DNA of 46,518 nt. Origin: Erythrobacteraceae bacterium (GTDB lineage: Bacteria > Pseudomonadota > Alphaproteobacteria > Sphingomonadales > Sphingomonadaceae). The DNA lies in the NCBI GenBank assembly GCA_027487015.1, contig JAIYEK010000194.1, positions 1 through 46,518 of the forward strand. Direction: 5' to 3'. The notes under the pieces were generated by a model. It was not told the origin of the DNA, did no database searches, and worked only from the letters and a program-made list of their open reading frames with translations. The translations under genes and the position numbers were made by a program. Positions 11,561 through 44,512 of the stretch are shown here, piece after piece. Within the stretch, counting starts at the first letter, position 1. Each line of letters starts with the position of its first letter.

Positions 11561-12808
11561 TCAAACGAGCTCCTTCAGCGCGACATCGGGATCCGCCAAC
11601 AACGCGGGATCGATCTGGCCGCAGCCGCTTTCGAGCAGCTTCCTCGCCTGCACATAGTCTTTCATCGTCCCCACGCAGTCGAAGGCGATGGGCACCCCGC
11701 CCTTCAAGTACACCACGGTGAACTTGCGCGTCTCCGGGTCGCCGCGCACCACCGTCTGGTCGAAGCCGAGGCTCAGCCCCGCAGTCTGGAGCTTGAGATC
11801 ATACTGGTTCGACCAGAACCACGGCAGCGCGTGATAGGGCTGCTTGTCGCCCATGATCGCGCGGGCGACGGTGGCGGCCATGTCATGCGCATTCTGCACC
11901 GATTCCAGCCGGATCACCGCACCATCGGCAAAGTCGTTGGCGTGGGCGGCGCAGTCGCCGATGGCATAGACATCATCCAGCGTGGTGCGGCAGCAGAAGT
12001 CGACATCGACCCCGTTCGACCCGACTGCCCCGGCTGCGATCAGAGGCGCGACCGCAGGCACCACCCCGATGCCGACGATCACCATGTCGCACGCGACCTC
12101 CTCACCCGTGCTCAGGCGCACGCCGGTGACCCGGCCCTCCGCTTCGCCGAGCACCGCCTGAACCCCGGTGGAAAGCCGCACATCGACACCCTGGCGGCGG
12201 TGCTCACCAGCGTAGAAGCTCGACAGCTCCTCCCCCGCCACCCGCGCCAGCAGGCGGGGTAGCGTCTCGACCAGCACCACGTCGCAGCCCAGCTTGCGCA
12301 GCACCGCGGTGGCTTCCAGCCCGATATAGCCGCCGCCGATCACCACCGCCCGCCGCGCGCCAGCGGCCAGCGCCGCCATCATCGCATCGGCATCGGACTT
12401 GTCTCGCACGTAGAAGACACCGGGCAGCACCGCGCCCGGCACGGGCAGGCGGCGCGGATCGCCCCCGCCCGACCAGATCAGCTTGCCATAGGTGACATGG
12501 CTCCCGTCGGAGAGCGTCAAGGTATGCCGCATCGGATCAATCGCGCTCACCGCCGCGCCGAGCCGAAGCGCGATGTCCTTCTCGGCCCAGAACTTCTCGG
12601 GCCGGATCATGATCCGCTCGAAGCCCTTATCGCCCGCGAGATACTCCTTCGACAGCGGCGGGCGCTCATAGGGCGGCGCATCATCGCGGCCGATCATCAG
12701 GATCGAGACTTCGAACCCGTGTTGGCGCAAGGCGATCGCCGCCTGCGCGCCGCCGTGCCCGGTGCCGACGATTACCACTTCTGCATGGCTGTGATTGGAT
12801 GCTGTCAC
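11561..12808 (-). CDS. FAD/NAD(P)-dependent ferredoxin reductase (oxygenase electron donor)
   Basis: A 415-aa pyridine nucleotide-disulfide-type reductase resembling rhodocoxin and putidaredoxin reductases and the ferredoxin reductases of Rieske systems. Visible motifs are an FAD-binding [14 protein letters not shown] at the N-terminus, [13 protein letters not shown], an NAD-binding [13 protein letters not shown] near residue 155, and an FAD-binding [11 protein letters not shown] near residue 275. There is no [2Fe-2S] domain, so a separate ferredoxin is needed; none is encoded here. The start is GTG at 12808, with AGGA about 5 bases upstream. It is last in the direction of the ben-cat-pca genes, 217 bp after pcaD. 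It probably donates electrons, through a ferredoxin, to BenAB and/or the Rieske hydroxylase at 32.6-34.4 kb. Confidence 0.85.
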
Positions 12809-12920
12809 GGTCGTCCTGTCCCCTCTTCCGACGAGATTGATGCTAGTCCGGCAGCCATAAGGTCCGGAAAAGTCGATGTCTGATAGTAGTTACCAAGCCG
12901 TGCAGCGCTGCCCGGAAGGT

Positions 12921-13025
12921 TCAGCGTGATGCGGTGCGCTCGCCTTTGCATTTGGCGACAAGAAAATCGAAGAAGCTGCGAGCATTGGTAATGCTCGAGG
13001 TGAACTGGTCAGCATGTAATGCTGC
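12921..13025 (-). pseudogene. possible LysR-type regulator C-terminal remnant
   Basis: Directly after the pcaD stop, and in the same frame, lies a 34-codon open stretch ending in TGA at 12921-12923. It translates to a piece containing TNARSFFDFLVAKCKGER. The ARSFFDFLVA part resembles the final helix of LysR-type regulators (commonly xRAFxDFLV). No start codon or N-terminal HTH remains. BenM/CatR-type LysR genes usually accompany ben and cat genes, so a deletion that fused pcaD to a regulator tail is plausible. The match is short and could be chance. Confidence 0.35.
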
Positions 13026-13802
13026 TCACGCGCAGAATCCGATCAGAGCGTCGACGACGCCTTCGGGACAATCAAGCGGCGCAAGGTGCGAGGCGTCGAG
13101 TTCCTTACCGATGGCATCAGGAATGTTGTTCGTCAGGAACAGGCCATGCGGATCGATCGGGGTCGAGCTGTCGTGCCGACCCGTCACCACCAGCACCGGG
13201 CAGGAAATTGCTTCGATCCGCGCTGCCAGATCCATGTCACGGATGGCACAGCCGCATGCGGCATAGGCTTCCGCATCCATTATCAGCAGATTTCGCCGCA
13301 CCGTTTCTGACAGATCTGGGCGCTGCGCCCGAGTCTGATCCGACAGGAAACGTTGCATCACCATATTAGCGAGCGGGGCCATGCCGTGGCGGCGCACGGT
13401 ATCCACCCGGTCTGCCCAGGCGGCTGAATCCATGGTCGCCGAGGTGCAGATAAGCGCCGCGCGCGACACCCTGCCCGGCCAGCCCAGCGCCAGCTCCATC
13501 GCCACCATTCCGCCGAGCGACACGCCAGCAACGCAAAACGATCGGAGCCCGGCATCATCCGCCACCGCGATGATGTCCTGCGCCAGCCTTCCCATCGTCA
13601 CGTCACCGCCATCATGGTGCGATGCCCCATGACCCCGGGTATCAATGCGCAGCAGACAAAAGCGCTCGCGCAGCATCGGCAGCGTCGGCTCCCACAGGTC
13701 CATGTCGGTGCCGATCGAATTGAGCAGCACCAGTGCTGGATTTGCGGACATGCCCTCGAGCTTCCAGTAAACCTGAGCGCCGGGAACCTGTGTAAATGGC
13801 AT
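13026..13802 (-). CDS. pcaD: 3-oxoadipate enol-lactonase
   Basis: An alpha/beta hydrolase of 258 aa that opens 3-oxoadipate enol-lactone to 3-oxoadipate, where the catechol and protocatechuate ortho pathways meet. The start MPFTQVPGAQVYWKLEG, LLNSIGTDMDLWEP (oxyanion region), DTRGHGAS, the nucleophile elbow VAGVSLGGMVAME (Ser near residue 95), VVTGRHDSSTP (acid) and DASHLAPLDCP (His) form a standard catalytic set and match PcaD closely. ATG 13802 lies 3 bp after the pcaJ stop, so it is translationally linked. Its stop is followed in frame by the possible LysR remnant. Confidence 0.88.
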   Translation of the reverse strand: MPFTQVPGAQVYWKLEGMSANPALVLLNSIGTDMDLWEPTLPMLRERFCLLRIDTRGHGASHHDGGDVTMGRLAQDIIAVADDAGLRSFCVAGVSLGGMVAMELALGWPGRVSRAALICTSATMDSAAWADRVDTVRRHGMAPLANMVMQRFLSDQTRAQRPDLSETVRRNLLIMDAEAYAACGCAIRDMDLAARIEAISCPVLVVTGRHDSSTPIDPHGLFLTNNIPDAIGKELDASHLAPLDCPEGVVDALIGFCA

Positions 13803-13805: not shown

Positions 13806-14462
13806 TCAGTCCGCCTCGTTCGCTAGCCCGCGAAGCGGTGCGCCGGTCTTCTGCCGGACCTCAGCGGCGCTCACTCCTGGGGCAAGCTCGACCAGAGTGA
13901 GCCCCCCACCCCCGCGCCGGTCGACGGAAATCACGCACAGGTCGGTGATGATAAGATCGACCACACCCTTGCCGGTCAGCGGCAGATCGCATTTCGGCTT
14001 GATCTTGGGTGCACCGTCCTTGGCAGTATGCTCCATCACAACGACGATCCGGCGCACCCCGGCGACCAGATCCATGGCCCCGCCCATCCCCTTCACCATT
14101 TTGCCCGGGATGGTCCAGTTGGCCAGATCGCCCGCGGCCGAGACCTCCATTGCGCCCAGCACCGCCATGTCGATGTGCCCGCCGCGGATCATCGCAAAGC
14201 TCTCGGCCGACGAGAAAAAGCTCGATGTCGGCAAGGCAGTCACGGTCTGCTTGCCTGCATTGATGAGATCGGGATCGACCTCGTCAGCAAAGGGGAACGG
14301 ACCGATGCCGAGCATCCCGTTTTCGCTCTGCAAGGTCACCGTAAGCCCTGCCGGGACGTGATTGGCAACCAGTGTCGGAATGCCGATCCCGAGGTTGACG
14401 TAGTATCCGTCACGGAGTTCCTGCGCCGCACGCGCGGCCATTTCGTCGCGGCTCCACGGCAT
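13806..14462 (-). CDS. pcaJ: 3-oxoadipate CoA-transferase, beta subunit
   Basis: Subunit B of a class I 3-oxoacid CoA-transferase, 218 aa, transferring CoA from succinyl-CoA to 3-oxoadipate. Motifs include [19 protein letters not shown], the catalytic-Glu segment [12 protein letters not shown] (Glu near residue 49), and [14 protein letters not shown]. The family also includes ScoB/AtoA acetoacetate enzymes; the position beside pcaI and pcaD makes 3-oxoadipate the likely substrate. Its ATG overlaps the pcaI stop (ATGA). No 3-oxoadipyl-CoA thiolase (pcaF) is in the window, so the last step must be encoded elsewhere. Confidence 0.87.
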
Positions 14463-15169
14463 CAGCTAGCCTCCCGCTCGCGCACGGTCAGCTTCTCGAT
14501 GCGCTTGGTGTTGATTGTGCTGGCGACGATCCTGTCGACGAAGATGCCGGGCGTGTGGACGCAATCGGGATCAAAGGTGCCTTCGGGTACGATCTCTTCG
14601 GCCTCGACCACCGTGACCCGTGCGGCCGTTGCCATTTCCGGGTTGAAGTTGCGCGCAGTCTTGCGGAACATGAGGTTGCCCGCAGGATCGGCGCGCCATG
14701 CCTTGATGATGGCGAGATCGGCCCGAAGCCAGCTTTCCTGCACATATTCCTCGCCATCGAATATCTCGACCGGCTTGCCCTCTGCGACCACGGTGCCAAC
14801 CCCGGTGCGCGTGTAGAATGCTCGGATCCCAGCCCCGCCTGCACGGATGCGTTCAGCCAGCGTGCCCTGAGGGTTGAGTTCCAGTTCGAGCTCGCCCGAC
14901 AGATACCGGCTTTCGAACAGCTTGTTGTCGCCCACATAGGACGAGATCATTTTGGCGACCTGGCAATTTTCCAGCAGCATCCAGAGCCCGAAGCCGTCCG
15001 CACCGGCGTTGTTCGAAATGACAGTCAAACCGGTCACGCCGGCCTTGCGGATCTCGGGGATCAGACTTTCAGGATTGCCAGACAGGCCAAAGCCGCCGGA
15101 CATGATGGTCATGCCATCATGCAGCACGCCTTCGAGCGCAGCTGCGGGAGAGGGGAATATTTTCTGCAT
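14462..15169 (-). CDS. pcaI: 3-oxoadipate CoA-transferase, alpha subunit
   Basis: Subunit A of the same CoA-transferase, 235 aa. It begins [20 protein letters not shown] and continues with [17 protein letters not shown], the glycine-rich segment typical of subunit A, then [14 protein letters not shown] and the [15 protein letters not shown] region. The frame extends upstream to 15376, but that part overlaps the SDR gene and does not look like protein. ATG 15169, 22 bp past the benD stop, gives the family N-terminus. The stop is coupled to pcaJ. The heterodimer probably acts on 3-oxoadipate in the cytoplasm. Confidence 0.88.
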
Positions 15170-15191
15170 CGAATGGAATCCGCAAAAGGGG

Positions 15192-15989
15192 CTAGCCAAG
15201 GTCACCGCCGGCGACAGGAAGGACGTTGCCGGTGATGTAGGAGGCCTCGTCGCTGGCAAGGAACAGGATCGGCGCGACTTGTTCAGCGATGCTGGCGTAC
15301 CGTTTGACGAAGGTTGACTGGATGACCTGTTCCACCGCTTCCTGCGTCCAGCGCTGTTCCTCGGGCGTGTCGCCATCGGGGTTGCGCGGCACGGGCCGCT
15401 CAGGAACCGTGGTTCCGCCTGGAGCTGTGGCCACGACGCGAATACCGCTTGGCGCCAGTTCCATGGCCAGGCTCTGCGTCAGGGCATTGATCCCGCCCTT
15501 CGCTGCGCTGTAGGGCACGCGATGGATGCCGCGCGTGGCATTTGAGGAAACGTTGACAATGGCGCCCGCTTGCTGCGCCAGCATGAATGGCAGAACAGCA
15601 TGGCAGCAATATAGCGTGGGCATCAAGGAGCGCCGGATTTCGGCATCGATCTGGGCCGGTTCGAACTGCGCCAATGGCCGCATCCGGATCGCCCCGCCAA
15701 CATTGTTGATGAGGATGTCAATGCGGTTCCAGAGGCGCATGGCCTCGGCCATCACCCGCTCAGCCTCGGCATGATGCTCGAGATCGGCAAGTATATGGCT
15801 TGCCGTACCTCCGGCTGCGATGATCTGGTCGGATACAGTGCTGACGACTTCGGCACGGTCCGCCAGCAACACGCGGGCACCTTCGGCTGCAGCTCGTAGC
15901 GCTACGGCGGCACCGATGCCCTGGCCGGCGCCGGTCACGATCATCGTCTTGCCCGCAAAACGGTTCGGAAAAGACCGGTTGTCAGACAT
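15192..15989 (-). CDS. benD: benzoate cis-diol dehydrogenase (SDR)
   Basis: A 265-aa short-chain dehydrogenase predicted to oxidise and decarboxylate 1,6-dihydroxycyclohexa-2,4-diene-1-carboxylate to catechol with NAD+. It shows the Rossmann motif VTGAGQGIGAAVALRAAAEG, ILINNVGG, IVNVSSNATRG, the catalytic YSAAKGG and the NVLPVAGGDLG tail, and resembles BenD/XylL throughout. ATG 15989 overlaps the end of benB by 8 bp. In most ben operons benC sits between benB and benD; here benD follows benB directly. Confidence 0.87.
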   Translation of the reverse strand: MSDNRSFPNRFAGKTMIVTGAGQGIGAAVALRAAAEGARVLLADRAEVVSTVSDQIIAAGGTASHILADLEHHAEAERVMAEAMRLWNRIDILINNVGGAIRMRPLAQFEPAQIDAEIRRSLMPTLYCCHAVLPFMLAQQAGAIVNVSSNATRGIHRVPYSAAKGGINALTQSLAMELAPSGIRVVATAPGGTTVPERPVPRNPDGDTPEEQRWTQEAVEQVIQSTFVKRYASIAEQVAPILFLASDEASYITGNVLPVAGGDLG

Positions 15990-16497
15990 GATAGATATCG
16001 ATCACCTGACTGATGTAGTCATCCTTAAGGATGACTGTCTTGGCGGCGATCCTGAAGCCGGGATGCGCAGTGTCGATAGTGCAGTGGGTCGTACCAAAGA
16101 ACTGGTCGGTCACTTGCATGCGGTGGCTGAGCGTGTGCCAGTTGTAGCGGACATCCACTTCCCCGCTCCGCTGCGAGATTACCTCGACATTGGCGATCAT
16201 ATGGCACGTGCGCGGCTGCGGGCTGCTGGCGCTCGAAAGCTGGGTGCGCAGACGGTACACGCGATCTTCCAAGCCTTGCCGACTTGCGTAGAAAATCAAC
16301 GACATCTCGCTCAAGGGGTCTTGCGTGAGGCGGTCGTCATCAGTCCAGGCTGGCATCCAGTAACGCGCGTCAGGAGCATAGCACTCAAGCCAGGGATCCC
16401 ACTCGCGGTCATCGAGCAAGCGAGCCTCGCGGAAGAGAAAGGCGCTCACTGCATGATGAAGTGCGGCATCGGCAGGTGCGGGATCAGCGTGCGTCAT
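15982..16497 (-). CDS. benB: benzoate 1,2-dioxygenase, small (beta) subunit
   Basis: A 171-aa NTF2-like beta subunit of a Rieske ring-hydroxylating dioxygenase. Features are FLFREARLLDDREWDPWLEC, YAPDARYWMPAWTDD and the closing TVILKDDYISQVIDIYHV, all characteristic of BenB/XylY. The beta subunit stabilises the alpha3-beta3 hexamer and has no cofactor. Its ATG overlaps the benA stop (ATGA), ensuring balanced synthesis, and its end overlaps benD. Confidence 0.88.
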   Translation of the reverse strand: MTHADPAPADAALHHAVSAFLFREARLLDDREWDPWLECYAPDARYWMPAWTDDDRLTQDPLSEMSLIFYASRQGLEDRVYRLRTQLSSASSPQPRTCHMIANVEVISQRSGEVDVRYNWHTLSHRMQVTDQFFGTTHCTIDTAHPGFRIAAKTVILKDDYISQVIDIYHV

Positions 16498-17852
16498 TCC
16501 GCAGCCTCCGCCATGGTGCCCTGTTCCGCCAGTTCGCGCTCCATGGCGGCGATCATGGTGCGGGCCCAGTATTCGTGCTGGCGCACAAACAGACCCTCAT
16601 CTTCGCTGCGTTCGCTCGACAGCAATGGGGCCATCCCCATCGCCTGCGCATTTTCGTCCGGCCCATCAATCCAGCGCCGGGCGCCTCGGCTGAGATCATT
16701 CCACAGCTCGCCCGCACCTGCATAGGCAGACTGGCAGGCACGGAATTCCTCCAGATCATCGGGCGTGCCCATGCCTGAGACGTTGAAGAAGTCTTCGTAT
16801 TGCCGGATCCGGGTGGCCCGGTTCTCCGGGCTCTCGCCTTTGGGGGCAAAGCAGTAGATGGTCACCTCGGTGCGGTCGACGCTCAGCGGGCGCACCACCC
16901 GGATCTGGGTAGAGAACTGATCCATCAGGAAGACATTGGGATAAAGCGCCAGATTGCGGGTCTGGCCGATCATGAATTCGGCCCGCTCCGGCCCGACCCG
17001 CGCGATCAGATCCTCGCGCTGGGTCCAGATCGGGCGCACTTCGGGATTAAGAAGGCGCGTCCATAGCAGGATATGGCCGTGGTCATAGGCATAGACCCCG
17101 CCCACTGCCTTCGACCATCCTCGCGCATCAACCGCCTTGGTTCCGCCCTCGGCCCGCCGTGCCATGGTCTGGGCGTAATTGGCGTGGACCGAACTGACGT
17201 GATAGCCGTCGCAACCGTTCTCCATCTGCAACTTCCAGTTACCCTGGAAGGCATAGGTCGAACTGCCGTTCAGGACTTCCAGACCCTCCGGCGCCTGATC
17301 AACGATCTGGTCGATGATCACGCGGGTTTCTCCGAGATAGTCGGCAAGCGGCACGACATCGGGGTTGAGGCTACCGAACAGAAACCCGCGGTAACTTTCA
17401 ACCCGGGCTACGCGGGTCAGATCGTGCGAACCGTCGGTATTGAAGCTTTCGGGATAGGCTCCCGTCGAGGAATCCTTGGCCTTGAGCAAAGTGCCGGTGT
17501 TGCGGAAGCTCCAACCGTGAAACGGGCACACGAACATCGCCTGATTGCCACGGCGGTTACGGCAGATCTTGGCACCGCGGTGCGAGCAGGCGTTGACGAG
17601 GCCGATGACATCTCCCTCCTTGCTGCGAACAAGGATGACAGGCACCCGGCCGATATGGGTCGTGTAGTAGTCGTTGGCTGCGGCAATCTGGCTCTCATGG
17701 GCGAGATAGACCCAATTGGCCTCGAAGATGTGCTTCATCTCGAGGTCGAACAGCACAGGATCGGTGAAGATATCTCGACGACAGCGGAAGATGCCGGCCG
17801 CCTCGTCATCAACCACCGCGGTGCGAACCCGCTCGATCTGGTGTTGCAACAT
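16494..17852 (-). CDS. benA: benzoate 1,2-dioxygenase, large (alpha) subunit
   Basis: The catalytic subunit that dihydroxylates benzoate at C1/C2, 452 aa as expected for BenA/XylX. The Rieske [2Fe-2S] motif C-x-H-x17-C-x2-H is at about C89, H91, C109 and H112. The mononuclear iron site is in ENGCDGYHVSSVHANY (Asp215, His218, His223). FEANWVYLAHESQI is a family signature. The preferred start is ATG 17852, with GGAGG 5 bases upstream; a TTG one codon earlier is less likely. Toluate or a related substituted benzoate is possible, but BenD and the catechol genes support benzoate. No BenC reductase is encoded with it. Confidence 0.88.
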   Translation of the reverse strand: MLQHQIERVRTAVVDDEAAGIFRCRRDIFTDPVLFDLEMKHIFEANWVYLAHESQIAAANDYYTTHIGRVPVILVRSKEGDVIGLVNACSHRGAKICRNRRGNQAMFVCPFHGWSFRNTGTLLKAKDSSTGAYPESFNTDGSHDLTRVARVESYRGFLFGSLNPDVVPLADYLGETRVIIDQIVDQAPEGLEVLNGSSTYAFQGNWKLQMENGCDGYHVSSVHANYAQTMARRAEGGTKAVDARGWSKAVGGVYAYDHGHILLWTRLLNPEVRPIWTQREDLIARVGPERAEFMIGQTRNLALYPNVFLMDQFSTQIRVVRPLSVDRTEVTIYCFAPKGESPENRATRIRQYEDFFNVSGMGTPDDLEEFRACQSAYAGAGELWNDLSRGARRWIDGPDENAQAMGMAPLLSSERSEDEGLFVRQHEYWARTMIAAMERELAEQGTMAEAAE

Positions 17853-17876
17853 CAATTCCTCCCCTTCCCGTGCGGT

Positions 17877-18767
17877 TCAGACTGCCAACCGGATGCGCTG
17901 CGAGAAGACTTCGTCCTCGGGCGACTGGGCACGCTGCAGCTGGATGTCGAAATCGACATAGGCGGTCTCGCCTTGTCGGTGTGGCATTGGCAACAGGCCC
18001 TCGCGCGTGCCGAATGCGAAGTCATCGGCGGCAAAAGGATCGTCGCCGAAATTGATCTGGGTGGTCAGCGTGCGGTATCCGCGCGCTTCGACAAAGAAAT
18101 GCACATGGGCAGGCCGCTTTCCATGCCGTCCGAGAGCACCCATCAGCCGGTCGGTCGCACCGCCGGGCGGGCAGGCATAGCCGCTCGGCATCTTGGATTC
18201 GAAAGAATAGAACCCGTTATCTTCCAGCCGGATGCGGCGGCGGTTGTTGAACGGCGTTTGTTCGCCGGTCGGATCGAAGTGCGAATAGAACCCTTTCGAG
18301 TTGGCGTGCCAGACGTGCAGGATAACGCCCTTGACCGGCTCGCCATCGGGGCCAGTCACCCTGCCCTTCATCCGCAAGGTCTCAGTGTCGTCGGGATCGG
18401 ACGAAAGGTGTGCGTGGCCTTCCACCAACGGTGCCCCTTCGACGTAAAGTGGCCCTTCGATCGTGCGCGGAGTGCCGCCGATGCGGCCGGCTTCGACGTC
18501 CTTGGCATCCATGTACAGGTCCATGAAGTGTTCGAGCCCGACACCGGGCATCATCAACCCGAATTCACCGGCGGCATCCTGAAGATAGCGCACGGCGCCC
18601 CAGAACTCGTTTTCGGAGATGTCATGACGGGCGATGACCGTCATGATCCCTTCAAGCAAATCACGTGTGATCGCCTTCAGCCGGCGGTCCCCGCCAGCGA
18701 CGTCGCTTCCCGAGGCCCGGTCGAGCAGGGCCTGGACCTGCGGGGTGGTGATGAAACTGCTATCCAT
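17877..18767 (-). CDS. catA: catechol 1,2-dioxygenase
   Basis: Intradiol dioxygenase, 296 aa, converting catechol to cis,cis-muconate using non-haem Fe(III). The N-terminal helical linker is followed by the catalytic domain. The expected ligands are Tyr161 (WHANSKGFYSHFDPTGE), Tyr197 (MPSGYACPPGG), and His221 and His223 (GRHGKRPAHVHFFVEA). The frame extends 11 codons further, but ATG 18767 has GGAG about 8 bases upstream and fits the family. It sits between catC and benA, joining benzoate-derived catechol to ring cleavage. Confidence 0.92.
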   Translation of the reverse strand: MDSSFITTPQVQALLDRASGSDVAGGDRRLKAITRDLLEGIMTVIARHDISENEFWGAVRYLQDAAGEFGLMMPGVGLEHFMDLYMDAKDVEAGRIGGTPRTIEGPLYVEGAPLVEGHAHLSSDPDDTETLRMKGRVTGPDGEPVKGVILHVWHANSKGFYSHFDPTGEQTPFNNRRRIRLEDNGFYSFESKMPSGYACPPGGATDRLMGALGRHGKRPAHVHFFVEARGYRTLTTQINFGDDPFAADDFAFGTREGLLPMPHRQGETAYVDFDIQLQRAQSPEDEVFSQRIRLAV

Positions 18768-18800
18768 TGCTCTCTCCTCAAAGCTGGTGGTGCCGCGCAA

Positions 18801-19091
18801 TCAGCGGTCGTCGTCGTGAAGCGACGAGGGATGCCGGCACAGGGCGGTCACAGTGACGGTCATGAAGGGGTACAGCGGCAGGGCTGTCAGGATGTCGTGA
18901 AGCTGCTGATTGCTCTCGACATCGAAAATGCTGACATTGGCGTATTGGCCAACGACCCGCCAGATATGCCGCCAGGTTCCGGCACGCTGAAGTTCCTGGA
19001 ATTTCTCCTTTTCAGCAGCCTTGAGGCGGTCGGCCTCTTCGGGCGCTATGTCGCGGGGAAGAGCGACGATCATTTCCACCTTGAACAGCAC
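18801..19091 (-). CDS. catC: muconolactone delta-isomerase
   Basis: A small 96-aa decameric-type enzyme isomerising muconolactone to 3-oxoadipate enol-lactone. It matches CatC along its whole length: MLFKVEMIVALP, the GTWRHIWRVVGQYANVSIFD core, and PLYPFMTVTVTALCRHPSS at the C-terminus. The start is GTG at 19091, since the N-terminal LFKVEM motif is conserved and an internal ATG would remove it. It lies 4 bp after the catB stop. Confidence 0.93.
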   Translation of the reverse strand: MLFKVEMIVALPRDIAPEEADRLKAAEKEKFQELQRAGTWRHIWRVVGQYANVSIFDVESNQQLHDILTALPLYPFMTVTVTALCRHPSSLHDDDR

Positions 19092-19095
19092 GGCA

Positions 19096-24380: not shown

Positions 24381-24426
24381 CTCCCTCAGCGCACCTCTCC
24401 CAAGTGACTTCCCCGTGGTAACAGCA

Positions 24427-25775: not shown

Positions 25776-25779
25776 CAAG

Positions 25780-32613: not shown

Positions 32614-32638
32614 CAGGCGTATTGGAAGGGCAAGAGTA

Positions 32639-33895: not shown

Positions 33896-34368
33896 CTGTC
33901 ACCACCGCTGTGCGCGAACGTCTCGCCGATCTGTACGCCGCCTATGCGAGCTGCCTCGATGATGGGCGCTTTGGCGAATGGCCCGAATTCTTCACGGAAG
34001 ACGCCTGGTATCGGGTCGTCCCGCGCGAGAACTATGATCAGGGCCTGCCGCTCAGCACGCTGTCGCTCAAGGGCAAGGCGATGTTGAAGGACCGGATCTA
34101 CGGGATCGAAAGTACGATCTTTCATGCCCCCTATTATCAGCGGCACATTCTTGGGCCGCTCCAGATTTCAGCCGGCGCAGACGGCGTCTTCGACGTCCGC
34201 TGCAACTTCCTCGTTGTCCGCACCAAACGCGATATGATGGCTGAAATTTTCAGCGTTGGTTACTACGTGGACAAAGTAAAAGTGAATGAAACCACCACCT
34301 TGTTCACAACCAAGATTTGCGTTTTCGACAATGACTTAATTCCCAATTCTCTGATTTATCCAATTTAG
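33892..34368 (+). CDS. Rieske ring hydroxylase beta subunit, salicylate 5-hydroxylase-like
   Basis: A 158-aa NTF2-like small subunit. It has LADLYAAYASCLDDGRFGEW, FFTEDAWYRVVPRENYDQG and IFHAPYYQRHILG, typical of NagH-type beta subunits. GTG 33892 overlaps the alpha-subunit stop (GTGA), so the two are coupled. The 3' end is AT-richer than the rest. The next gene, a TonB receptor, begins 27 bp downstream and is probably in the same transcript. Confidence 0.82.
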   Translation: MTVTTAVRERLADLYAAYASCLDDGRFGEWPEFFTEDAWYRVVPRENYDQGLPLSTLSLKGKAMLKDRIYGIESTIFHAPYYQRHILGPLQISAGADGVFDVRCNFLVVRTKRDMMAEIFSVGYYVDKVKVNETTTLFTTKICVFDNDLIPNSLIYPI

Positions 34369-37095: not shown

Positions 37096-38355
37096 TCAGC
37101 GTGTCTTGCGGATGGGCAGCACCACAAAGGCCCCGATCACCGCAAAGGCAGCGCCCGCCAGAAAGACGGCAGGAAGATTCTGGCCCGAGGGCGAGCCAAT
37201 GACCAAAAACAGGGGCGCAATCATCGGTGCAAGGCTTTGGGGCAAAGTGCTGGCGATGTTAAAGACGCCGAGATCCTTTGCTGTGTCTTCTGGGTTGGGA
37301 AGCACGGCGGCGACCAGCGCCATATCTACCGCGAAATAGACACCTTGGCCCACGCCATAGATGGCCGCTCCGATGAGAAACTGGCCAGGCGTGGTCGCTG
37401 TGCCAATCACGATGAGGCCGGCAGCGACGAGCAGTCCCGCTGCCAGCACGACCGGCTTGCGCCGTCCGATGCGGTCAGACAGCCAACCGCTCGCCAGCGT
37501 GCACACAATCGTCACGACCGTTGTGATCAGCTGCGCCTGCGCGAGGATTTCCAAGGCTGCTGCCTCGCCCAGCCCAAGCGCATCATTGACGAAGATGAAC
37601 TGGTAGCTGAGAAAATAGGCGACGCCCATGAACACCAGCAGACGGCTGAGGAAGGCCCAACCGAAGTCCGGGTGCTCCATCGGGTTGACCCAGAACGTGC
37701 GCAGCATATCGGCCGCGCGGAAGGGCGGCAGATCGGCGGCGGGACTATCGCTGAACCTCGCGAAGAGCCAGATGACCGCGACCGGCACGATCGCCCAGGG
37801 CGCAAGGAACATCAGCAGATTGTTATGAGCCGTGTACTGGGTGACATAGGCACCAAGGAACAGCGCCAGGCTGAGCGCAATGCCGAGCAGCGCCGACACC
37901 TTGCCGCGCTGTTCCTCGGGCACAAATTCGGGAAGCAGCGCATTATTGGCCGCCATCGCGGCGTTCGCCCCGACCTGCACGAGAAACCAGCCCGCTCCCA
38001 GCATGAAGAGCGAGCTCGCTTGCGCCATCAATAGCAGGCCACCAAACAGAATTAGGCAGCCAACCACGATCCAGAGCTTGCGCTTGCCGAGCCGGCTGCG
38101 CGTTCGATCGGACATTGCGCCGAAGATCGGCGCCGAGACCAGCGCGGCAAAGGCTCCGGGCGCGAGCACAGCGCCGAGATCGACGGCGCGGTCGGCAGTG
38201 CCGGATAACTGGCCCAGCTTTACCGCAATCGAAGCAAGCAGAGGCGCGAACAGCGCGAGATAGATCGCAAAAACAGTCAGCAGATAGGCCAGCATGAACC
38301 CCAGCCCCACAGGCTTCAGCGGGCCAGCAGGACCGGACGTGGCAATCGGCTGCAC
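37096..38355 (-). CDS. MFS transporter, GPH/SLC45-like glycoside importer
   Basis: A 419-aa inner-membrane transporter with about twelve membrane segments. FGAMSDRTRSRLGKRKLWIV in loop 2-3 is the motif seen in sugar/glycoside symporters of the GPH and SLC45 type, and SGWLSDRIGRRKPVV repeats it in the second half. The start is GTG 38355 with GGGAG about 8 bases upstream, 18 bp after the GH3 stop. It is the last gene of the TonB receptor-esterase-glucosidase operon. It would carry the deacylated glycoside to the cytoplasm, where the GH3 enzyme lacks a signal peptide. Confidence 0.82.
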   Translation of the reverse strand: MQPIATSGPAGPLKPVGLGFMLAYLLTVFAIYLALFAPLLASIAVKLGQLSGTADRAVDLGAVLAPGAFAALVSAPIFGAMSDRTRSRLGKRKLWIVVGCLILFGGLLLMAQASSLFMLGAGWFLVQVGANAAMAANNALLPEFVPEEQRGKVSALLGIALSLALFLGAYVTQYTAHNNLLMFLAPWAIVPVAVIWLFARFSDSPAADLPPFRAADMLRTFWVNPMEHPDFGWAFLSRLLVFMGVAYFLSYQFIFVNDALGLGEAAALEILAQAQLITTVVTIVCTLASGWLSDRIGRRKPVVLAAGLLVAAGLIVIGTATTPGQFLIGAAIYGVGQGVYFAVDMALVAAVLPNPEDTAKDLGVFNIASTLPQSLAPMIAPLFLVIGSPSGQNLPAVFLAGAAFAVIGAFVVLPIRKTR

Positions 38356-38373: not shown

Positions 38374-40590
38374 TTAGTCTTTTGGCGCGACCGTGAAAGT
38401 ACCGGCAAGGCTTGCTACGGAGTCCCCGCCAACGAACACGTCGAAGGTAGTGGCATCTGCCACCCACCCGCGCGCGGCGGATGACCAGTAGCGGCGCCGC
38501 TCGGCGCTGAGAACAAATCGCACGACCCGGCTTTCGCCCGGCGCGAGGGTTACGCGCTCGAACCCTTTGAGTTCACGCACTGGCCGGGCCGCACTGCCGT
38601 GACGCTGGTGGATGTAGAGCTGGACAACCTCGTCCCCAGCCACCGACCCCGTATTGGTTACCGTCACCGCAATCGCCAGATCATCAACCAGTCCGATAGG
38701 GTCGGCGCCGATCACAAGGTCGGAATAGGCAAAGGTCGTGTAGCTCAGGCCAAAACCGAACGGGAAGAGCGGCGTGCCGTCTTCATTCCAGTAACGCATT
38801 TCGCGTTCTTTGGGCTTGTGGGTGACCATTCGCGCATAGTGGAGAGGAACCTGACCGATACTCCGGACCCAGGTGAAAGGCAGTTTGCCCCCGGGGACAA
38901 TTTTGCCGAAGACGGCATTGGCAACCGCCGTGCCGCCTTGCGTGCCGGGATACCAGATCTGAAGAACCGCCGCCGGGCTTGCGCCCTTGAGATCAAGCGG
39001 GCGCGCCGCCATCATGAGCAAGACGGTCGGCGTGCCCGTAGCGATGACCGCTTCGAGCAGTTCCTGCTGCCGCCCCGGCAGATCGAGCGAAGAGCGCGAT
39101 GCTGCCTCGCCGATCATATTCTGCGCTTCGCCCAGCACCAGCAGCGCCACATCGCTGTCTTTGGCGGCAGCGACCGCCGCCGCAATGCCAGCATCGTCAT
39201 CGACGCTGACCAAAGGAGCAATATCAAAGCCTGGAATGTCATCGAAGAACGAGGGGTTGAGCCGTTGCTCGATGGAAACGCCGGTGACATGCTCGACTTC
39301 GGCCGTCCCGGCGAGGTGATCGCGAATGCCGGCTAGCACGGTGACTGTCTCAGCGTTGTCGTGGTCGAACACCCAAGGGCCGATGGTATCGCGTGCGGAG
39401 TCCGCCAGCGGGCCGATCACGGCAACCTTGCGAAGTGCGCGGGGATCAAGCGGGAGAACCTGGCCCTCGTTGCGAAGCAACACGAAGCTGCGCTCGGCAG
39501 CGCGGCGCGCCGCGTCGCGGTGCGCCGGTTCGTCCAGCACCCGCACCGCTGCATCCGGCTCTGCATAGGGCGCATCGAACAGACCAAGCTGCGCTTTGAC
39601 CGTCAGCACCCGCCGGACGGCATCATCAAGCCGTGCAGGTTCGATCAGCCCAGCAGCCAGAGCCTGCGGTAGCGTATTGAACACCGAGTCATGCGCTTCG
39701 AGCGCCATCTCCATATCGAGCCCGGCATTGAGCGCGCGCACTGCAGCGTCCGCCCCATCCCGCGCGAAATTGTGCTTGGCAAGGTCGTGCGCCGAGTTCG
39801 CATCCGACACGGTAAAGCCGCTGAAGCCCCACTCTTCCTTGAGAATTTCCGTGATGAGCCAGTGATTGCCCGTGGCAGGCACACCGTTGAGGGTCATGTA
39901 GGCGCACATGATATTGGCAGCGCCCGCATCAATCGCGGCTTTGAACGGCGGCAGATAGACATTGCGCAGTTCACTTTCCGACAGGTCTGCCTCGTCGTAA
40001 TCGCGCCCGCCCAGCGCCGCGCCGTAGCCCGCGAGGTGCTTGGGTCCTGCCACCATCCGGTCGGCCGACGACAGGTCATCGCCCTGAAAGCCGCGCACCT
40101 GCGCTGCGGCCATGATACCGCCAAGATAGGGGTCTTCCCCGGCACCCTCGATCATCCGGCCCCAACGCGGATCGCGCGCGACATCGACCATCGGGGCAAA
40201 GGTCCAGTGCAGTCCGGTGGCTCGTGCTTCGGCCGCCGCAACGGCCTGCGCCGCTTCAACGGCTGCCGGATCCCACGATGCCGCCATCGCGATCGGCACA
40301 GGAAAGATCGTGCGCAGCCCGTGAATAACGTCCAGAGCGAAGATCAGCGGTATTCCGAGGCGGCTTTCTTCGACCGCAATCCGCTGCAGCCGGGTGATCT
40401 CACTCGGATCGCGGACAAACAGGATGGCCCCTGCCCGGCCTGCAGCGATTTCCTCATCGACCGGTTCGCTGCCGCGTTCGAAAACGAAGAACTGACTAAG
40501 TTGCCCAGCCTTTTCTTCAGGGGTCATCGCTGCAATCAGGCGCTCGATCCGATCGGCGAGCGCGGCGGGCAGAACCTTCGACTGGCTCAT
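38374..40590 (-). CDS. beta-glucosidase, glycoside hydrolase family 3
   Basis: A 738-aa GH3 enzyme. It has the N-terminal (alpha/beta)8 domain with PLIFALDVIHGLRTIFPVPI, WTFAPMVDVARDPRWGR, the AGPKHLAGYG substrate segment and the nucleophile Asp263 in FTVSDANSAHDL; then the alpha/beta sandwich (SFVLLRNEGQVLPLDP) and a C-terminal fibronectin-III-like domain (FGFGLSYTTFAYSDL). Unlike many BglX enzymes it has no signal peptide, so it is probably cytoplasmic. ATG 40590 overlaps the esterase stop (ATGA). A beta-glucoside or aryl-beta-glucoside is likely; exact specificity (glucose or xylose) cannot be read. Confidence 0.9.
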   Translation of the reverse strand: MSQSKVLPAALADRIERLIAAMTPEEKAGQLSQFFVFERGSEPVDEEIAAGRAGAILFVRDPSEITRLQRIAVEESRLGIPLIFALDVIHGLRTIFPVPIAMAASWDPAAVEAAQAVAAAEARATGLHWTFAPMVDVARDPRWGRMIEGAGEDPYLGGIMAAAQVRGFQGDDLSSADRMVAGPKHLAGYGAALGGRDYDEADLSESELRNVYLPPFKAAIDAGAANIMCAYMTLNGVPATGNHWLITEILKEEWGFSGFTVSDANSAHDLAKHNFARDGADAAVRALNAGLDMEMALEAHDSVFNTLPQALAAGLIEPARLDDAVRRVLTVKAQLGLFDAPYAEPDAAVRVLDEPAHRDAARRAAERSFVLLRNEGQVLPLDPRALRKVAVIGPLADSARDTIGPWVFDHDNAETVTVLAGIRDHLAGTAEVEHVTGVSIEQRLNPSFFDDIPGFDIAPLVSVDDDAGIAAAVAAAKDSDVALLVLGEAQNMIGEAASRSSLDLPGRQQELLEAVIATGTPTVLLMMAARPLDLKGASPAAVLQIWYPGTQGGTAVANAVFGKIVPGGKLPFTWVRSIGQVPLHYARMVTHKPKEREMRYWNEDGTPLFPFGFGLSYTTFAYSDLVIGADPIGLVDDLAIAVTVTNTGSVAGDEVVQLYIHQRHGSAARPVRELKGFERVTLAPGESRVVRFVLSAERRRYWSSAARGWVADATTFDVFVGGDSVASLAGTFTVAPKD

Positions 40591-41528
40591 GGGACGGCGG
40601 CAACCTCGGGGGCCTTGAGGAACCCTTCCATATCGAGCCAGGCGACGAATTGCTCGAGCATCAGCTTCGACGTCGTGCCCGGCCGGCCGGAACCAAAGCC
40701 ATGGCCGCCCTTGCCATAGGCATGGGTTTCAACGCGCTTCGTCGCAGCATGCCAAGCCTCGGCAATCGGGAAGCCCATCATCGCGAACAATTCGTCATTA
40801 TAGGCGATGGCGTTGAACATCGGCGGTGCATCGGCAGGCACTGTCACTGCATGCTGCGGGCCATAAATGTAGCCGAAGAAATCCGGTCCCTTACCCGGCT
40901 GTGCCTTGAGAACCGCATTCAGCGAAGTCATCGCGCCTGCGGAAAAGCCGATCATGCCGACGCGATCAGGGTCGATATTGAATTCTCCGGCGCGGGCGCG
41001 GACAAGGTCGAGCGCAGCGAGGGCGTCCTCGGTGGACTGCGGATAGAACAGCTGCGGTGGCTTGGCCGGATCGGTCATCGATGCGGCTATCTTCTCGTTC
41101 ATGTAGACATGCGCCTCGTTCACATCGACGGGCGTGGGCATGATCCTGTACTTCAGCACGAAAGCAGCGATCCCGCGGTCGGCCAGCGCGCGCGCGACCG
41201 CCCATCCCTCAGGCTCGATCGCCAGCAACATGAAGCCGCCGCCGGGCGCAACGATCACCGCAGCGCCAGTTGCCTTTGCCGGATCGGGAAGGAACGGCGT
41301 CAAGGTCGGGCGGGTCACATTGCGCACCACCTTGCCGTGACCAATGTAATCCATCCACGTCTCGCCCTCGGGAGAAAGCGCATCGTCACCGGCCTGCAAC
41401 GGGATAGCCAGCGGCTGATCCGGCGCCGTCGTCATTTCGATCTCGGGCATGGGCATTTGCGCAGCGGCAAGGCTGCACGAGACAAGTGCGACGAGCCCGG
41501 CAAGCGTGCGTGCCAACCGAATGATCAT
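40587..41528 (-). CDS. exported alpha/beta-hydrolase esterase (xylanase/acetyl-esterase-like)
   Basis: A 313-aa alpha/beta hydrolase with a Sec signal (IIRLARTLAGLVALVSCSLA, then AAQ). The oxyanion motif is AAVIVAPGGGFMLLAIEPEG. The nucleophile elbow is VGMIGFSAGAMTS, and the C-terminal His lies in AYGKGGHGFGSG. The group (BD-FAE/AXE-like) removes acetyl, feruloyl or other acyl groups from carbohydrates. ATG 41528 has GGGAG about 9 bases upstream; the open frame before it is out of family. It sits between the TonB receptor and the beta-glucosidase, so periplasmic deacylation of an imported acyl glycoside is the likely role. Confidence 0.85.
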   Translation of the reverse strand: MIIRLARTLAGLVALVSCSLAAAQMPMPEIEMTTAPDQPLAIPLQAGDDALSPEGETWMDYIGHGKVVRNVTRPTLTPFLPDPAKATGAAVIVAPGGGFMLLAIEPEGWAVARALADRGIAAFVLKYRIMPTPVDVNEAHVYMNEKIAASMTDPAKPPQLFYPQSTEDALAALDLVRARAGEFNIDPDRVGMIGFSAGAMTSLNAVLKAQPGKGPDFFGYIYGPQHAVTVPADAPPMFNAIAYNDELFAMMGFPIAEAWHAATKRVETHAYGKGGHGFGSGRPGTTSKLMLEQFVAWLDMEGFLKAPEVAAVP

Positions 41529-41591
41529 GAGGCGTCTCCCAGAATAGCAGAAATGAAGAACAACCGGTGCCGTGCGCTTGCTGACAGAACA

Positions 41592-41623
41592 AGGGTGAGC
41601 TGCCGGCTTGGGCAGCCCACCCT
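41592..41623 (-). terminator. hairpin between TonB receptor and esterase genes
   Basis: AGGGTGAGCTGCC (41592-41604) and GGCAGCCCACCCT (41611-41623) pair over 13 positions with one mismatch around a GGCTTG loop. On the minus strand it is followed by TGTTCTGT, a weak T-tract. It lies 28 bp after the receptor stop and probably lowers expression of the downstream enzymes relative to the receptor, or stabilises the receptor mRNA. Confidence 0.6.
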
Positions 41624-41650
41624 CGTCTCGCAAGCAGGCGACAGGCAGGC

Positions 41651-44512
41651 TCAGAACCGGAGGCGTACGCCCGCGGTGAAGTAGCGACCGATGATATCAT
41701 CGCCCGAAGTCGCCGGGAACGAGAATGCCGGCGTTCCCGAGGTCCCTGCAGTCAGATAGACCGGCGGGTCCTGATCGAACAGGTTCTGCACCGATACGAA
41801 GAAGGCCTTGTTCTTGTCTTTGCCGGCAAACCACGTGAACGTCACGTCCGTGTAGGCGACCGATGCGACCTTGCCATCGGCAAACACGAGCGAGCGGGTC
41901 GCATCGCGCACCAGCGACGAACGCCAACGCTGCTGCAGGTCAAACGAGAAGCTCGGCGTGCTGTAGCTGGCAAAGCCGGTCAATCGCACCTTGGGGACGC
42001 CGCCAGTGGACTGGGTTGCTGCGGCGCCTGCACCGATCTGGGGCTCTACGCCGGGTGCAAGGAATGTCGTCAGTTCCGGCTGATAGCCAACAAGGCCGCG
42101 CAGCAAGATGCGCCCTTCGTCGCCGACTTCGAAGCTGTAGTTCACTTCGCCATCGATGCCCCAGGTCTTGATCGACGAGGCGTTCAGCGTGGCGATCCGC
42201 ACCAGCGTCGGGAAGTTTGCCGCCGTCGTATTGGAGAACGGCAAGGGGCGCTCGTACAGATCACAGAAGGCATTGGTGCCGCCGCTGGCGTTACAGGCAG
42301 CCTGGATCGAAGCCTGCCTACCATCAATCTGCGAGATCGCGTTGCCGAGCTCGATGCGGTAGTAATCAACCGCAAAGCTGAGACCCGGCGCGAAGCCCGG
42401 CTTGTACACTGCGCCAAAGGTCAGCGTGTCGGCCTCTTCCGGCACCAGGTTGGGGTTGCCACCAGTTTCGGTGGTCACAATCCCGCTCGGACCCGAGCTG
42501 TTGGTCAGGAGGTCGAAATAGCCGCTCGCACCGCCAGTTGCGGGCTGGAAGCGCTCGAACAGGCTGGGCGCGCGGATGTCGCGCGAGATCGTGCCGCGCA
42601 GGCGCAGGTCATCGGTGATGTCCCAATCCCCGCCGATCTTCCACGTCGTGACGCCGCCACTGGTGGAATAATCGGTATAGCGCGCTGCACCGGTCAGGTT
42701 GATCGAACCGACCGCGCTGTCACTCACCAGCGGGAAATTGATCTCGATCGCCCCTTCCTTGACCGTTTCGCCGACGGTGATCGGCGTAATCAAGGTGTCG
42801 CGGAACACCGGGGTCGCGCCCGGCGTGCACCCGAAGCGAATGCCTGTGCAATCGGCAAAGACGTCCGACGGCGTGTTGCTCGAATAGTCGAGCGACAGGC
42901 GACGGTATTCGCCGCTGATCGCAAACTGCACTGGGCCCGCCCAGTTCTCGAAGGCGGTCCCGCCAAAGCTGGCAGAAACAGTGTCCATCTTGAAGTTGGG
43001 GACGTTGAAGTTGTCACCGGTGATGTAGTCGAGCGCAGCATCCTGACTGGCGGGCGTGGCGCCGAAACCATTGAGCGGAACGCAACCGGGATAGACGTTC
43101 GGGTTGGTCAACGTGACACGGCAAACGATATTACCGTTGCGCGGACCACCGTTGAAGGCCCCCTGATCCACCGCGTCGAGCGAGGCAAACAGATTGCCCA
43201 TCAGGACGTTGTTGACCTGCGTGTTCACCGCCTTGCTTTCGCTGTGCTGATAGTGAACCGTCCAGTCGAAGTCGCCAGCGCTACCCGTCAGGCCGGCCGC
43301 AGCCGACCAGTTGGTGGTCTTGTTGCGCACACCGAGCGCGTGCTCTGGATCATCGAAAACCCGCGAATAGAGGAACACCGGCCCGAACGGACCTGACGAC
43401 AGTTCCGCCTGTGCAGCAGGAGAAAGGAACGCGTTGTCGGCCCCCACGATCGTCGGGAAGATCAGGTTGGGGTAGAAGGTGTTGAACGTCTTCGACTGGG
43501 CAAAGGTGCCCTGCACGTAGAAATTGATCGACTCGGTCAGATCATAGCTGGCGCGCGCGAAGGCCTGATCGGTCTCGAGATCAGCGGTCGCCGAGGAGCC
43601 CTTGCCGTAGAAACCGTCACCGCCGCTCGCGAGCGCACCGCCCTGCGGAGTGCCCGGCACGGCGTTGCCCAACACGCCTGGAGCAACGAACACGCGGCCG
43701 GTGAACAGGTTAGCACCCTGGAAAGGGATCGCGGAATTGCGCGCATTGGTGATCAGGCGGAACGGATCGGCCGTAGTGCCGGACCCGGCCACCGCGTAGA
43801 TATCCGCGCCAGTGGGGCGATCTTCCTTGTCGTCGATGCCGTCCTGCTGGAAGTGTTCGTAGCTGGCGATGAAGCGTCCGCGACCATCGGCAAAAGATGT
43901 GCCGAAGGCACCTGCCGCGCGCCAAGAAAATGCATCGCCGCGCCCGGAAATACCGCTCTGCCCTTCAAGCTTCAGTCCCTCGAACTTCTTGTCGAGAACA
44001 AAGTTGACCACGCCCGAGACAGCGTCTGAACCGTAAACAGCCGAAGCGCCGCCCGTCACCACCTCAACACGCTGCACCAGGATCTGAGGCAGGGAGTTGG
44101 TATCAACAGCACCTGTCAGGCTTGACGGCGCAACACGCTGACCATCAAGCAGCACAAGGTTGCGGCTGATGCCGAAGCCGCGCAGGTTGAGGAAGTTGCC
44201 GGTGAAGTTGTCCGACGGGTTGTTGAGATTGGCCGTCCCACGTGAAAGCGCGAAGATCGGCAGCTTGTTCAGGCCGTCGGGAATATTGGTCGGGGTGGTC
44301 TTCAGCAGCAGCTCCGTGCTGGCGACTGTGACCGGGGTCGGCTGATTGTCGCCATTCGAAGTGATGCGCGAACCGGTCACCACGATGGTCTCAGCCGATG
44401 TCGCGGTGTCTTCCACAGGAGCGTCCTGCGCGGACTGGTCTTGCGCAAACGCAGGCTGCGCAAGCGCGAGCGCGCCCAGGCTGGCAGACAGCAAGAGCTT
44501 CACATGATGCAT
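41651..44512 (-). CDS. TonB-dependent receptor of the glycoside operon
   Basis: A 953-aa outer-membrane receptor: signal peptide ending QPAFAQ-D, TonB-box/plug entry ETIVVTGSRITSNG, NFLNLRGFGISRNLVLLDGQ, RVEVVTGGASAVYGSDAVSG, and a barrel ending IIGRYFTAGVRLRF. This plug pattern (GSRI, LRGFG, LLDGQRV) is common in sphingomonad, Caulobacter and Xanthomonas receptors. ATG 44512 has GGGAG about 8 bases upstream. As the first gene before an esterase and a GH3 glucosidase, it probably imports an acylated oligosaccharide or aryl glycoside. Confidence 0.93.
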   Translation of the reverse strand: MHHVKLLLSASLGALALAQPAFAQDQSAQDAPVEDTATSAETIVVTGSRITSNGDNQPTPVTVASTELLLKTTPTNIPDGLNKLPIFALSRGTANLNNPSDNFTGNFLNLRGFGISRNLVLLDGQRVAPSSLTGAVDTNSLPQILVQRVEVVTGGASAVYGSDAVSGVVNFVLDKKFEGLKLEGQSGISGRGDAFSWRAAGAFGTSFADGRGRFIASYEHFQQDGIDDKEDRPTGADIYAVAGSGTTADPFRLITNARNSAIPFQGANLFTGRVFVAPGVLGNAVPGTPQGGALASGGDGFYGKGSSATADLETDQAFARASYDLTESINFYVQGTFAQSKTFNTFYPNLIFPTIVGADNAFLSPAAQAELSSGPFGPVFLYSRVFDDPEHALGVRNKTTNWSAAAGLTGSAGDFDWTVHYQHSESKAVNTQVNNVLMGNLFASLDAVDQGAFNGGPRNGNIVCRVTLTNPNVYPGCVPLNGFGATPASQDAALDYITGDNFNVPNFKMDTVSASFGGTAFENWAGPVQFAISGEYRRLSLDYSSNTPSDVFADCTGIRFGCTPGATPVFRDTLITPITVGETVKEGAIEINFPLVSDSAVGSINLTGAARYTDYSTSGGVTTWKIGGDWDITDDLRLRGTISRDIRAPSLFERFQPATGGASGYFDLLTNSSGPSGIVTTETGGNPNLVPEEADTLTFGAVYKPGFAPGLSFAVDYYRIELGNAISQIDGRQASIQAACNASGGTNAFCDLYERPLPFSNTTAANFPTLVRIATLNASSIKTWGIDGEVNYSFEVGDEGRILLRGLVGYQPELTTFLAPGVEPQIGAGAAATQSTGGVPKVRLTGFASYSTPSFSFDLQQRWRSSLVRDATRSLVFADGKVASVAYTDVTFTWFAGKDKNKAFFVSVQNLFDQDPPVYLTAGTSGTPAFSFPATSGDDIIGRYFTAGVRLRF

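Follow-up and report, generated by a model that had tools for sequence, protein, structure and literature searches.

An Erythrobacteraceae bacterium (assembly GCA_027487015.1) harbours, on contig JAIYEK010000194.1, what is probably a mobile catabolic locus for acylated beta-glucosides, with salicyl alcohol or a close benzyl-type alcohol as the predicted aglycone; we place the probability of this reading at about 0.57. The stretch analysed, hereafter the window, comprises 46,518 nucleotides and is contig 129 in a genome of 350 contigs and 3.5 Mb. By family assignment, the window encodes routes for salicyl alcohol and benzoate as well as the uptake and cleavage of glycosides. The leading candidates for the natural substrate are the salicinoids of Salicaceae (salicin, populin, tremuloidin, and tremulacin). 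The first-pass annotation of this DNA had proposed a dedicated salicinoid locus at 11561-44512 with a single TonB receptor. Gene calling and family scans recovered all the enzyme classes it named in that block, and two TonB receptors instead of one (34396-36966 and 41651-44512). The receptor, esterase, glycosidase, and salicyl-to-gentisate genes recur together in three relatives, and this part of the proposal was borne out; the link to Salicaceae was not, as no locus is tied to such a source.

Relatives of the window genes were searched in family samples of 199 and 397 genomes and in plasmid records. Proteins were assigned by family scans against curated NCBIfam cut-offs and Pfam, and then by matches to solved structures. 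Signal peptides were judged by eye throughout (window, G296, and G171). True starts of open reading frames (ORFs) were taken from the beginnings of homologues, the listed ORFs of the alcohol dehydrogenase (ADH), PcaI, the FAH-family hydrolase, the beta subunit of salicylate 5-hydroxylase (S5H), and the esterase being too long.

Much the same combination of genes recurs in three relatives, and the locus is for this reason probably a real working unit. The closest of the plasmid matches, a plasmid of Blastomonas sp. RAC04, carries 17 homologues of window genes with 42-83% identity, in the same order from a short-chain dehydrogenase (SDR) to TonB receptor 2. This order is SDR, CoA-transferase, hydratase-like protein, IclR regulator, hydrolase, IclR regulator, gentisate genes, aldehyde dehydrogenase (ALDH), ADH, S5H alpha and beta, MFS importer, GH3 glycosidase, esterase, and receptor 2, with extra VOC and LysR genes. 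About 17 kb beyond receptor 2, the RAC04 plasmid possesses the genes pcaF-pcaD-pcaJ-pcaI-benD-benB-benA-catA-catC-catB, which lack benC and adjoin conjugation genes. PMC5095461 describes strain RAC04 as coming from a haptophyte culture, and the record gives the algal phycosphere as source.

The two other relatives, genomes G296 and G171, belong to the family sample. In G296, on a contig of 42 kb, we found the SDR, CoA-transferase, hydratase-like, and alpha/beta hydrolase genes, one IclR regulator, and the gentisate genes, together with ALDH (83% identity), ADH (78%), S5H (85%), receptor 2 (77%, truncated where the contig stops), and esterase (63%). IclR regulator 1 and the MFS carrier were not seen in this locus, and no BenA was detected in the 40 kb scanned of the contig. 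Genome G171 encodes receptor 2 (58%), two carboxylesterases, and a GH3 enzyme, followed by the S5H/gentisate/ADH/ALDH set, and a ben/cat operon lies 28 kb past S5H on the same contig. Three of the four loci bearing the unit, the window included, thus share their contig or plasmid with genes of the ben/cat type. A fatty-acid-hydroxylase-type protein (PF04116; L162 8705-9757, L164 1217-2263) is encoded near the unit in both G171 and G296, with 65% identity between them; neither the window nor the RAC04 stretch L137 gave a match. Hydrolases of the PF00144 beta-lactamase family (L163 1685-2965, L112 4347-5420) stand beside ALDH and ADH in both genomes; they are about 25% alike and are possibly further esterases.

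The GH3 enzymes of G296 and G171 are not orthologous to that of the window. They share 28% and 30% identity with it, look exported, and in a GH3 tree form very long branches of unsure placement outside the clade (100/99) of the window, RAC04, and an Erythrobacter metagenome-assembled genome (MAG). The G296 enzyme is encoded beside a GluP-type glucose/galactose MFS carrier. Since the two loci carry such different enzymes, recruitment of a glycosidase seems to have happened more than once. That the GH3 is of another lineage while the remainder of the locus is retained is the strongest indication of glycoside cleavage as part of the unit's function.

Genes for S5H were detected in ten of the 397 genomes, own included (at most four candidates per genome), and these ten loci were compared with that of RAC04; another 66 plasmid records with an S5H alpha relative (E 1e-80) lie outside this 11-locus comparison. 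Close ADH and ALDH relatives stand beside S5H in five of the 11 loci (window, RAC04, G296, G171, and G031). The receptor-esterase-GH3 set was present in four of these five and in none of the six loci without ADH and ALDH (G127, G220, G277, G236, G028, and G287), whose flanks were read for about 20 kb on each side (about 3 kb on one side of G028). The difference (Fisher 0.015) is indicative only, as the loci are related by descent. The same four loci also carry the CoA-transferase and hydratase-like genes. The condition that would have spoken against the first-pass annotation, homologous clusters always without the glycoside operon, does not hold, the set being found in four of the 11 loci and not in the other seven, within the flanks read. 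Receptor 2 was matched in 18 genomes of the larger sample, own included (E 1e-150). Among the candidates scored, at most two per genome, the only non-own homologues with at least 58% identity were those of G296 and G171, both with S5H on the contig. A GH1 glycosidase as hidden replacement was ruled out, since PF00232 was found in none of the eight genomes scanned (the six without ADH and ALDH, G031, and G296), GH1 and GH3 being the families looked for.

The glycoside operon of the window lies on the opposite strand to TonB receptor 1 and consists of receptor 2 (41651-44512, minus strand; homologue of 75% in RAC04), an esterase of the Abhydrolase_3/BD-FAE type (40587-41633, minus), a GH3 beta-glucosidase (38374-40590, minus; 67% in RAC04), and an MFS importer, a candidate carrier for intact glycosides (37096-38355, minus; 74% in RAC04). 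The esterase appears exported, with its true start near residue 36. The GH3 passes the cut-off of the BglX equivalog (684 bits, cut-off 666) and contains the domains PF00933, PF01915, and PF14310 (Fn3-like). BglX is periplasmic; no signal peptide was recognised at the N-terminus of the window GH3. Such an enzyme beside a glycoside-type MFS carrier, as in the window and RAC04, would fit cleavage in the cytoplasm, and the exported GH3 with a glucose-type carrier in G296 would fit cleavage outside it. TonB receptor 1 (34396-36966, plus) has homologues in G296 (80%), G171 (68%), and the Erythrobacter MAG (96%, partial) and is absent at the corresponding place in RAC04. The 3.5 kb contig of this MAG shows the same run as the window, with GH3 (partial, 88%), MFS (95%), and receptor 1.

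The steps of degradation, their compartments, and the identity of sugar and acyl group are predicted from these assignments. Receptor 2 would import the glycoside ester into the periplasm, where the exported, sugar-ester type esterase would strip the acyl group. The MFS carrier would then move the bare glucoside to the cytoplasm, and the GH3 would free glucose there. Salicyl alcohol would be converted to salicylate by the aryl alcohol and salicylaldehyde dehydrogenases and to gentisate by S5H, and the ring-cleavage set would yield fumarate and pyruvate. A benzoate acyl group, or a benzyl alcohol part processed by the same dehydrogenases, would enter through BenABD to catechol and follow the ortho branch to 3-oxoadipyl-CoA.

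The genes predicted for the salicyl alcohol part lie within 24966-34368. The aryl alcohol dehydrogenase (31339-32613, plus), with a true start near 31.5 kb, has its top structure match in 5tnx, a zinc-dependent ADH without specific name (479 bits), followed by benzyl alcohol dehydrogenase 1f8f (442 bits), the next match reaching 237; its RAC04 homologue is 82% identical from residue 50. The NahF-like salicylaldehyde dehydrogenase (29822-31273, minus) matches NahF 4jz6 with 685 bits, ahead of another salicylaldehyde dehydrogenase (541), vanillin dehydrogenase (517), and 4-hydroxybenzaldehyde dehydrogenase (322). S5H alpha and beta (32639-34368, plus) were assigned by family scan and structure match. 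The alpha subunit is closest to NagG 7c8z (633 bits, runner-up 319), and it passes no NCBIfam equivalog cut-off (best AndAc, 369 vs 750). The ring-cleavage set (27425-29815, plus) consists of gentisate 1,2-dioxygenase, whose gene is about 4 kb from S5H, FAH-family hydrolase, and maleylpyruvate/maleylacetoacetate isomerase, with the dioxygenase and the maleylacetoacetate isomerase above curated NCBIfam cut-offs. Because the best named structure matches of ADH, ALDH, and S5H are benzyl alcohol dehydrogenase, NahF, and NagG, these genes and the gentisate dioxygenase form a coherent predicted route from salicyl alcohol to gentisate. Upstream lie IclR regulator 1 (24966-25775, plus; PcaR/PcaU/PobR-like, below the NCBIfam cut-off), a small alpha/beta hydrolase (25765-26445, plus), which by family scan and structure match is hydroxynitrile-lyase/SABP2-like and a candidate ester hydrolase, and IclR regulator 2 (26376-27323, plus).

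The second aromatic branch runs leftward from 21.6 kb as an operon with catB, catC, catA, benA, benB, benD, pcaI, pcaJ, and pcaD, all on the minus strand, headed by a PcaK-like MFS importer for aromatic acids (20250-21587; 388 bits, cut-off 770) and closed by an HcaD/AndAa-like ferredoxin reductase (11561-12808; AndAa 313 bits, cut-off 650). The catechol ortho branch down to 3-oxoadipyl-CoA, as first annotated, was confirmed by its genes: CatA, CatC, and CatB (17877-20250), with the muconolactone isomerase and, by a subfamily model, the muconate cycloisomerase above cut-off and CatA below it (329 bits, cut-off 392); PcaJ and PcaI (13806-15376), the 3-oxoadipate CoA-transferase, above subfamily cut-offs; and a PcaD-like 3-oxoadipate enol-lactonase (13026-13802) with 239 bits against a cut-off of 256. 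PcaI starts near 15.17 kb, and the PcaJ and PcaI homologues of RAC04 share 81% and 85% identity. The annotated benzoate dioxygenase was found in part. BenD, BenB, and BenA (15192-17855; benzoate 1,2-dioxygenase and diol dehydrogenase) are present, with BenD and BenB (230 bits, cut-off 226) above and BenA (702 bits, cut-off 781) below their cut-offs, but benC is absent, nothing lying between benB and benD and no such gene being found among the operon genes scanned. The HcaD/AndAa-like flavoprotein is a possible electron donor part, and in G171 a relative with 59% identity is encoded about 2 kb away from the homologue of receptor 2. An operon without benC is seen in the window (15192-16497) and in RAC04 (L185 20286-21555), and G174 also has no gap between benB and benD. 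In G171, G164, and G027 these genes are separated by about 1 kb, the size of benC, as judged by size alone. BenA with at least 70% identity occurs in five of the 199 family genomes, own included. G028, G031, and G127 have no BenA at E 1e-100, and G220, G236, G277, and G287 were checked in the flanks only.

Between the two branches lies a module (21633-24455, minus strand) that was absent from the first-pass account. It encodes an SDR, a class III CoA-transferase, and an itaconyl-CoA-hydratase-like (MaoC-type) protein, as assigned by family and structure matches. The hydratase-like protein matches itaconyl-CoA hydratase 8khg (E 7.4e-22), and the best matches of the CoA-transferase are of the CaiB/BaiF, formyl-CoA, succinate-glutarate, and succinate-hydroxymethylglutarate types, with the NCBIfam ones all below cut-off. 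All three genes are found in RAC04 and G296, and G171 possesses the CoA-transferase/hydratase pair with an SDR (52%) about 2.5 kb away and a PaaH-like 3-hydroxyacyl-CoA dehydrogenase beside these relatives. After RAC04, the closest plasmid relatives of the CoA-transferase (64-65%) adjoin a hydratase-like homologue (39-46%), and such pairs occur on plasmids of Cupriavidus, of Phaeobacter, and of Agrobacterium from quaking aspen and willow; a distance of about 3 kb separates the two genes in Agrobacterium leguminum. On the aspen and willow plasmids (L139, L186) the pair lies beside genes for a flavin-dependent monooxygenase and a sugar ABC transporter and may be a plant-metabolite locus of its own. 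In Phaeobacter the pair is accompanied by an SDR (52%), IclR, and VOC genes and, within about 14 kb, by a PcaF-type thiolase, a 3-hydroxyacyl-CoA dehydrogenase, a flavin monooxygenase, and a semialdehyde dehydrogenase. With such neighbours, the module may serve to break down a non-aromatic acid as CoA ester, and this acid could be the acyl group of the glucoside. It seems doubtful that the unit achieves complete mineralisation of salicortin- and tremulacin-type salicinoids, with the module taking 1-hydroxy-6-oxocyclohexene carboxylate, or the ring-opened acid, as CoA ester towards beta-oxidation. The neighbours in Phaeobacter and G171 and the plasmids from aspen and willow speak for this reading. 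Against it, the pair is also found in a Rhizobium from coal-mine soil, in Cupriavidus, and in a Phaeobacter that came from a haptophyte culture, so that a wider substrate is suggested.

A number of observations weigh against the acylated beta-glucoside reading. Relatives of the GH3 showed no S5H or ADH relative in the stretches fetched, one of them a contig of 4.7 kb; this holds for those of 54-62% in all four non-own matches (E 1e-200, 397 genomes) and for those found with 61-64% identity in Novosphingobium profundi, N. ovatum, and Oryzibacter. Members of the esterase family are common (37 of the 199 family genomes), and in four of the 11 genomes read around esterases away from S5H (G156 twice, G021, G102, and G110) the same 20 kb includes a GH3 relative and no S5H. 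Short DNA similarity to the esterase gene was also found in three Sphingobium plasmid genes annotated as endo-1,4-beta-xylanase. Because of these matches and the co-occurrence of esterase and GH3 without S5H, such a pair could well serve other sugars. The sugar released by the GH3 of G171 may not be glucose, as its best NCBIfam model is alpha-L-arabinopyranosidase, at 379 far below the cut-off of 1300. Genome G031 encodes S5H, ALDH, and ADH, and in the 80 kb read it shows no relatives of receptor 2, esterase, GH3, CoA-transferase, hydratase-like protein, or gentisate dioxygenase. The loci of G296 and G171 also hold genes that this reading does not predict, among them those for a P450, an epoxide-hydrolase-type protein, a LigB-type dioxygenase, and class C beta-lactamase-type hydrolases. 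A Rieske-type ferredoxin and a reductase accompany the NagGH salicylate 5-hydroxylase. No Rieske-type ferredoxin was found in the window, where the PF00355 matches are the two oxygenase alpha subunits only (PF00111-type ferredoxins were not searched for), and a reductase is encoded 20 kb from S5H. None of the loci located has a known Salicaceae plant source, and the search for a promoter motif shared by the operons and preserved from locus to locus was negative.

A rival explanation is that two neighbours with unrelated functions, a salicyl/benzyl aromatic cluster and an operon for acetylated plant oligosaccharides (esterase, BglX GH3, and TonB receptor), travel together on plasmids and are linked by shared ancestry only. 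We first favoured the GH3 operon as such a passenger, from the GH3 relatives away from aromatic genes in both family samples and the lack of a close GH3 in G171, G031, G127, and G028. The breadth of the esterase and GH3 families, their occurrence together without aromatic genes in four of 11 genomes, and the seven of 11 S5H loci without the set in the flanks read agree with it. This view was weakened because the RAC04 locus is syntenic and because G296 and G171 have other GH3 enzymes at the locus. In both genomes the linkage of the aromatic genes with receptor 2 is preserved, but the GH3 (and, in G171, the esterase too) comes from another lineage of the same class, a pattern that passive hitch-hiking does not predict; we consider unrelated neighbours unlikely, although they are the strongest rival. 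Less likely again is a locus dedicated to another plant glucoside, for which salicylate glucoside or ester, methyl salicylate glycosides, benzyl glucosides, trichocarpin-like gentisate benzyl esters, and o-coumarate glucoside are candidates; the side chain of o-coumarate would be removed by the CoA-transferase/hydratase/SDR module. The recurrence of this module in the unit, beside the PaaH-like dehydrogenase in G171, and of the hydroxynitrile-lyase/SABP2-like hydrolase in RAC04 and G296 is consistent with such substrates. However, salicylate glucoside needs neither ADH nor ALDH, yet both are linked to S5H in all four unit-bearing loci, and the scanned window genes included no thiolase or aldolase that would act on a C3 side chain. 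Naphthalene degraders possess NahF and NagG, and as best structure matches these enzymes could point to the lower half of a polyaromatic, naphthalene-type pathway with an accidental glycosidase operon. This is very improbable, as no upper-pathway ring-hydroxylating oxygenase was seen in the window besides S5H and BenA, and the aryl alcohol dehydrogenase is linked to S5H in five of the 11 loci. The acylated beta-glucoside locus is the reading we retain.

Two sequence patterns were considered as a shared operator and dropped as evidence. The palindrome TGTGAAACGAATTTCACA precedes receptor 2 (44574-44591), and a partial copy stands in front of the alcohol dehydrogenase gene (31360-31377). None of 100 shuffles gave three matches, for a pattern derived from the data and with one site counted twice, and neither RAC04 (L137) nor the G296 stretch L163 contains the palindrome. 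The pattern TGCATATATGCA precedes the hydratase-like gene in the window and RAC04 and occurs only in partial form in G296; its total counts are no more than chance, being reached by 37 and 16 of 100 shuffles.

At the contig end (44827-46518) the window encodes an AlpA-type regulator, a helix-turn-helix (HTH) protein, and a TrbC/VirB2 pilin. The pilin gene has 79-84% DNA identity over about 200-260 bases in 16 of the 19 plasmid records matched, all from sphingomonad-type genera, and the locus may lie on a conjugative plasmid or an integrative element. Membership of one plasmid family with RAC04 was not supported, as the TrbC, AlpA, and HTH proteins have no match (E 1e-3) in the RAC04 conjugation region L185. 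Positions 1-10876, to the left of the aromatic genes, hold a separate sugar-type locus with two TonB receptors, a protein with an NAGPA-type phosphodiester glycosidase domain, a ROK regulator, and an MFS_2 sugar carrier.

The enzymes of the locus belong to known families, and their assembly is new; no publication title describing such a combination was found in the open-licence literature. TonB-receptor sugar utilisation loci with esterase and GH3 are a known type, and similar to them the window has receptor, esterase, glycosidase, and MFS genes in one operon, which here is joined to an aromatic ring-cleavage pathway. Apart from benC, the gene content of the second branch is that of benABCD-catABC-pcaDIJ operons; neither the window nor RAC04 has benC, and the reductase at the operon end of the window is from another family. 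Naphthalene degraders convert salicylate to gentisate with a nag-type gene set, and the window shares its S5H, gentisate dioxygenase, isomerase, and hydrolase. Unlike that set, no naphthalene dioxygenase or Rieske-type ferredoxin was seen in the window, which has an aryl alcohol dehydrogenase and a glycoside operon. If our reading is true, receptor-type sugar loci and aromatic pathways have been assembled into one unit, in which the glycosidase was swapped and the rest kept.

Among the major defence compounds of poplars and willows are the salicinoids. If one transferable locus imported, deacylated, deglucosylated, and mineralised such a compound through two ring-cleavage branches, salicinoid degradation by one organism would become testable. 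The published salicin route is divided between two species (PMC9959693). In this poplar system Rahnella OV744 deglycosylates salicin, and Pseudomonas fluorescens GM16 oxidises salicyl alcohol through catechol with the cluster PMI19_01133-01136 (PMC9959693, PMC11708038). The GM16 cluster resembles the window in its relevance to salicin and in the conversion of salicyl alcohol to salicylate by an alcohol and an aldehyde dehydrogenase. Unlike GM16 and OV744 as described in these papers, the window has glycosidase, esterase, receptor, and gentisate route in one locus, with ben/cat genes as a second branch.

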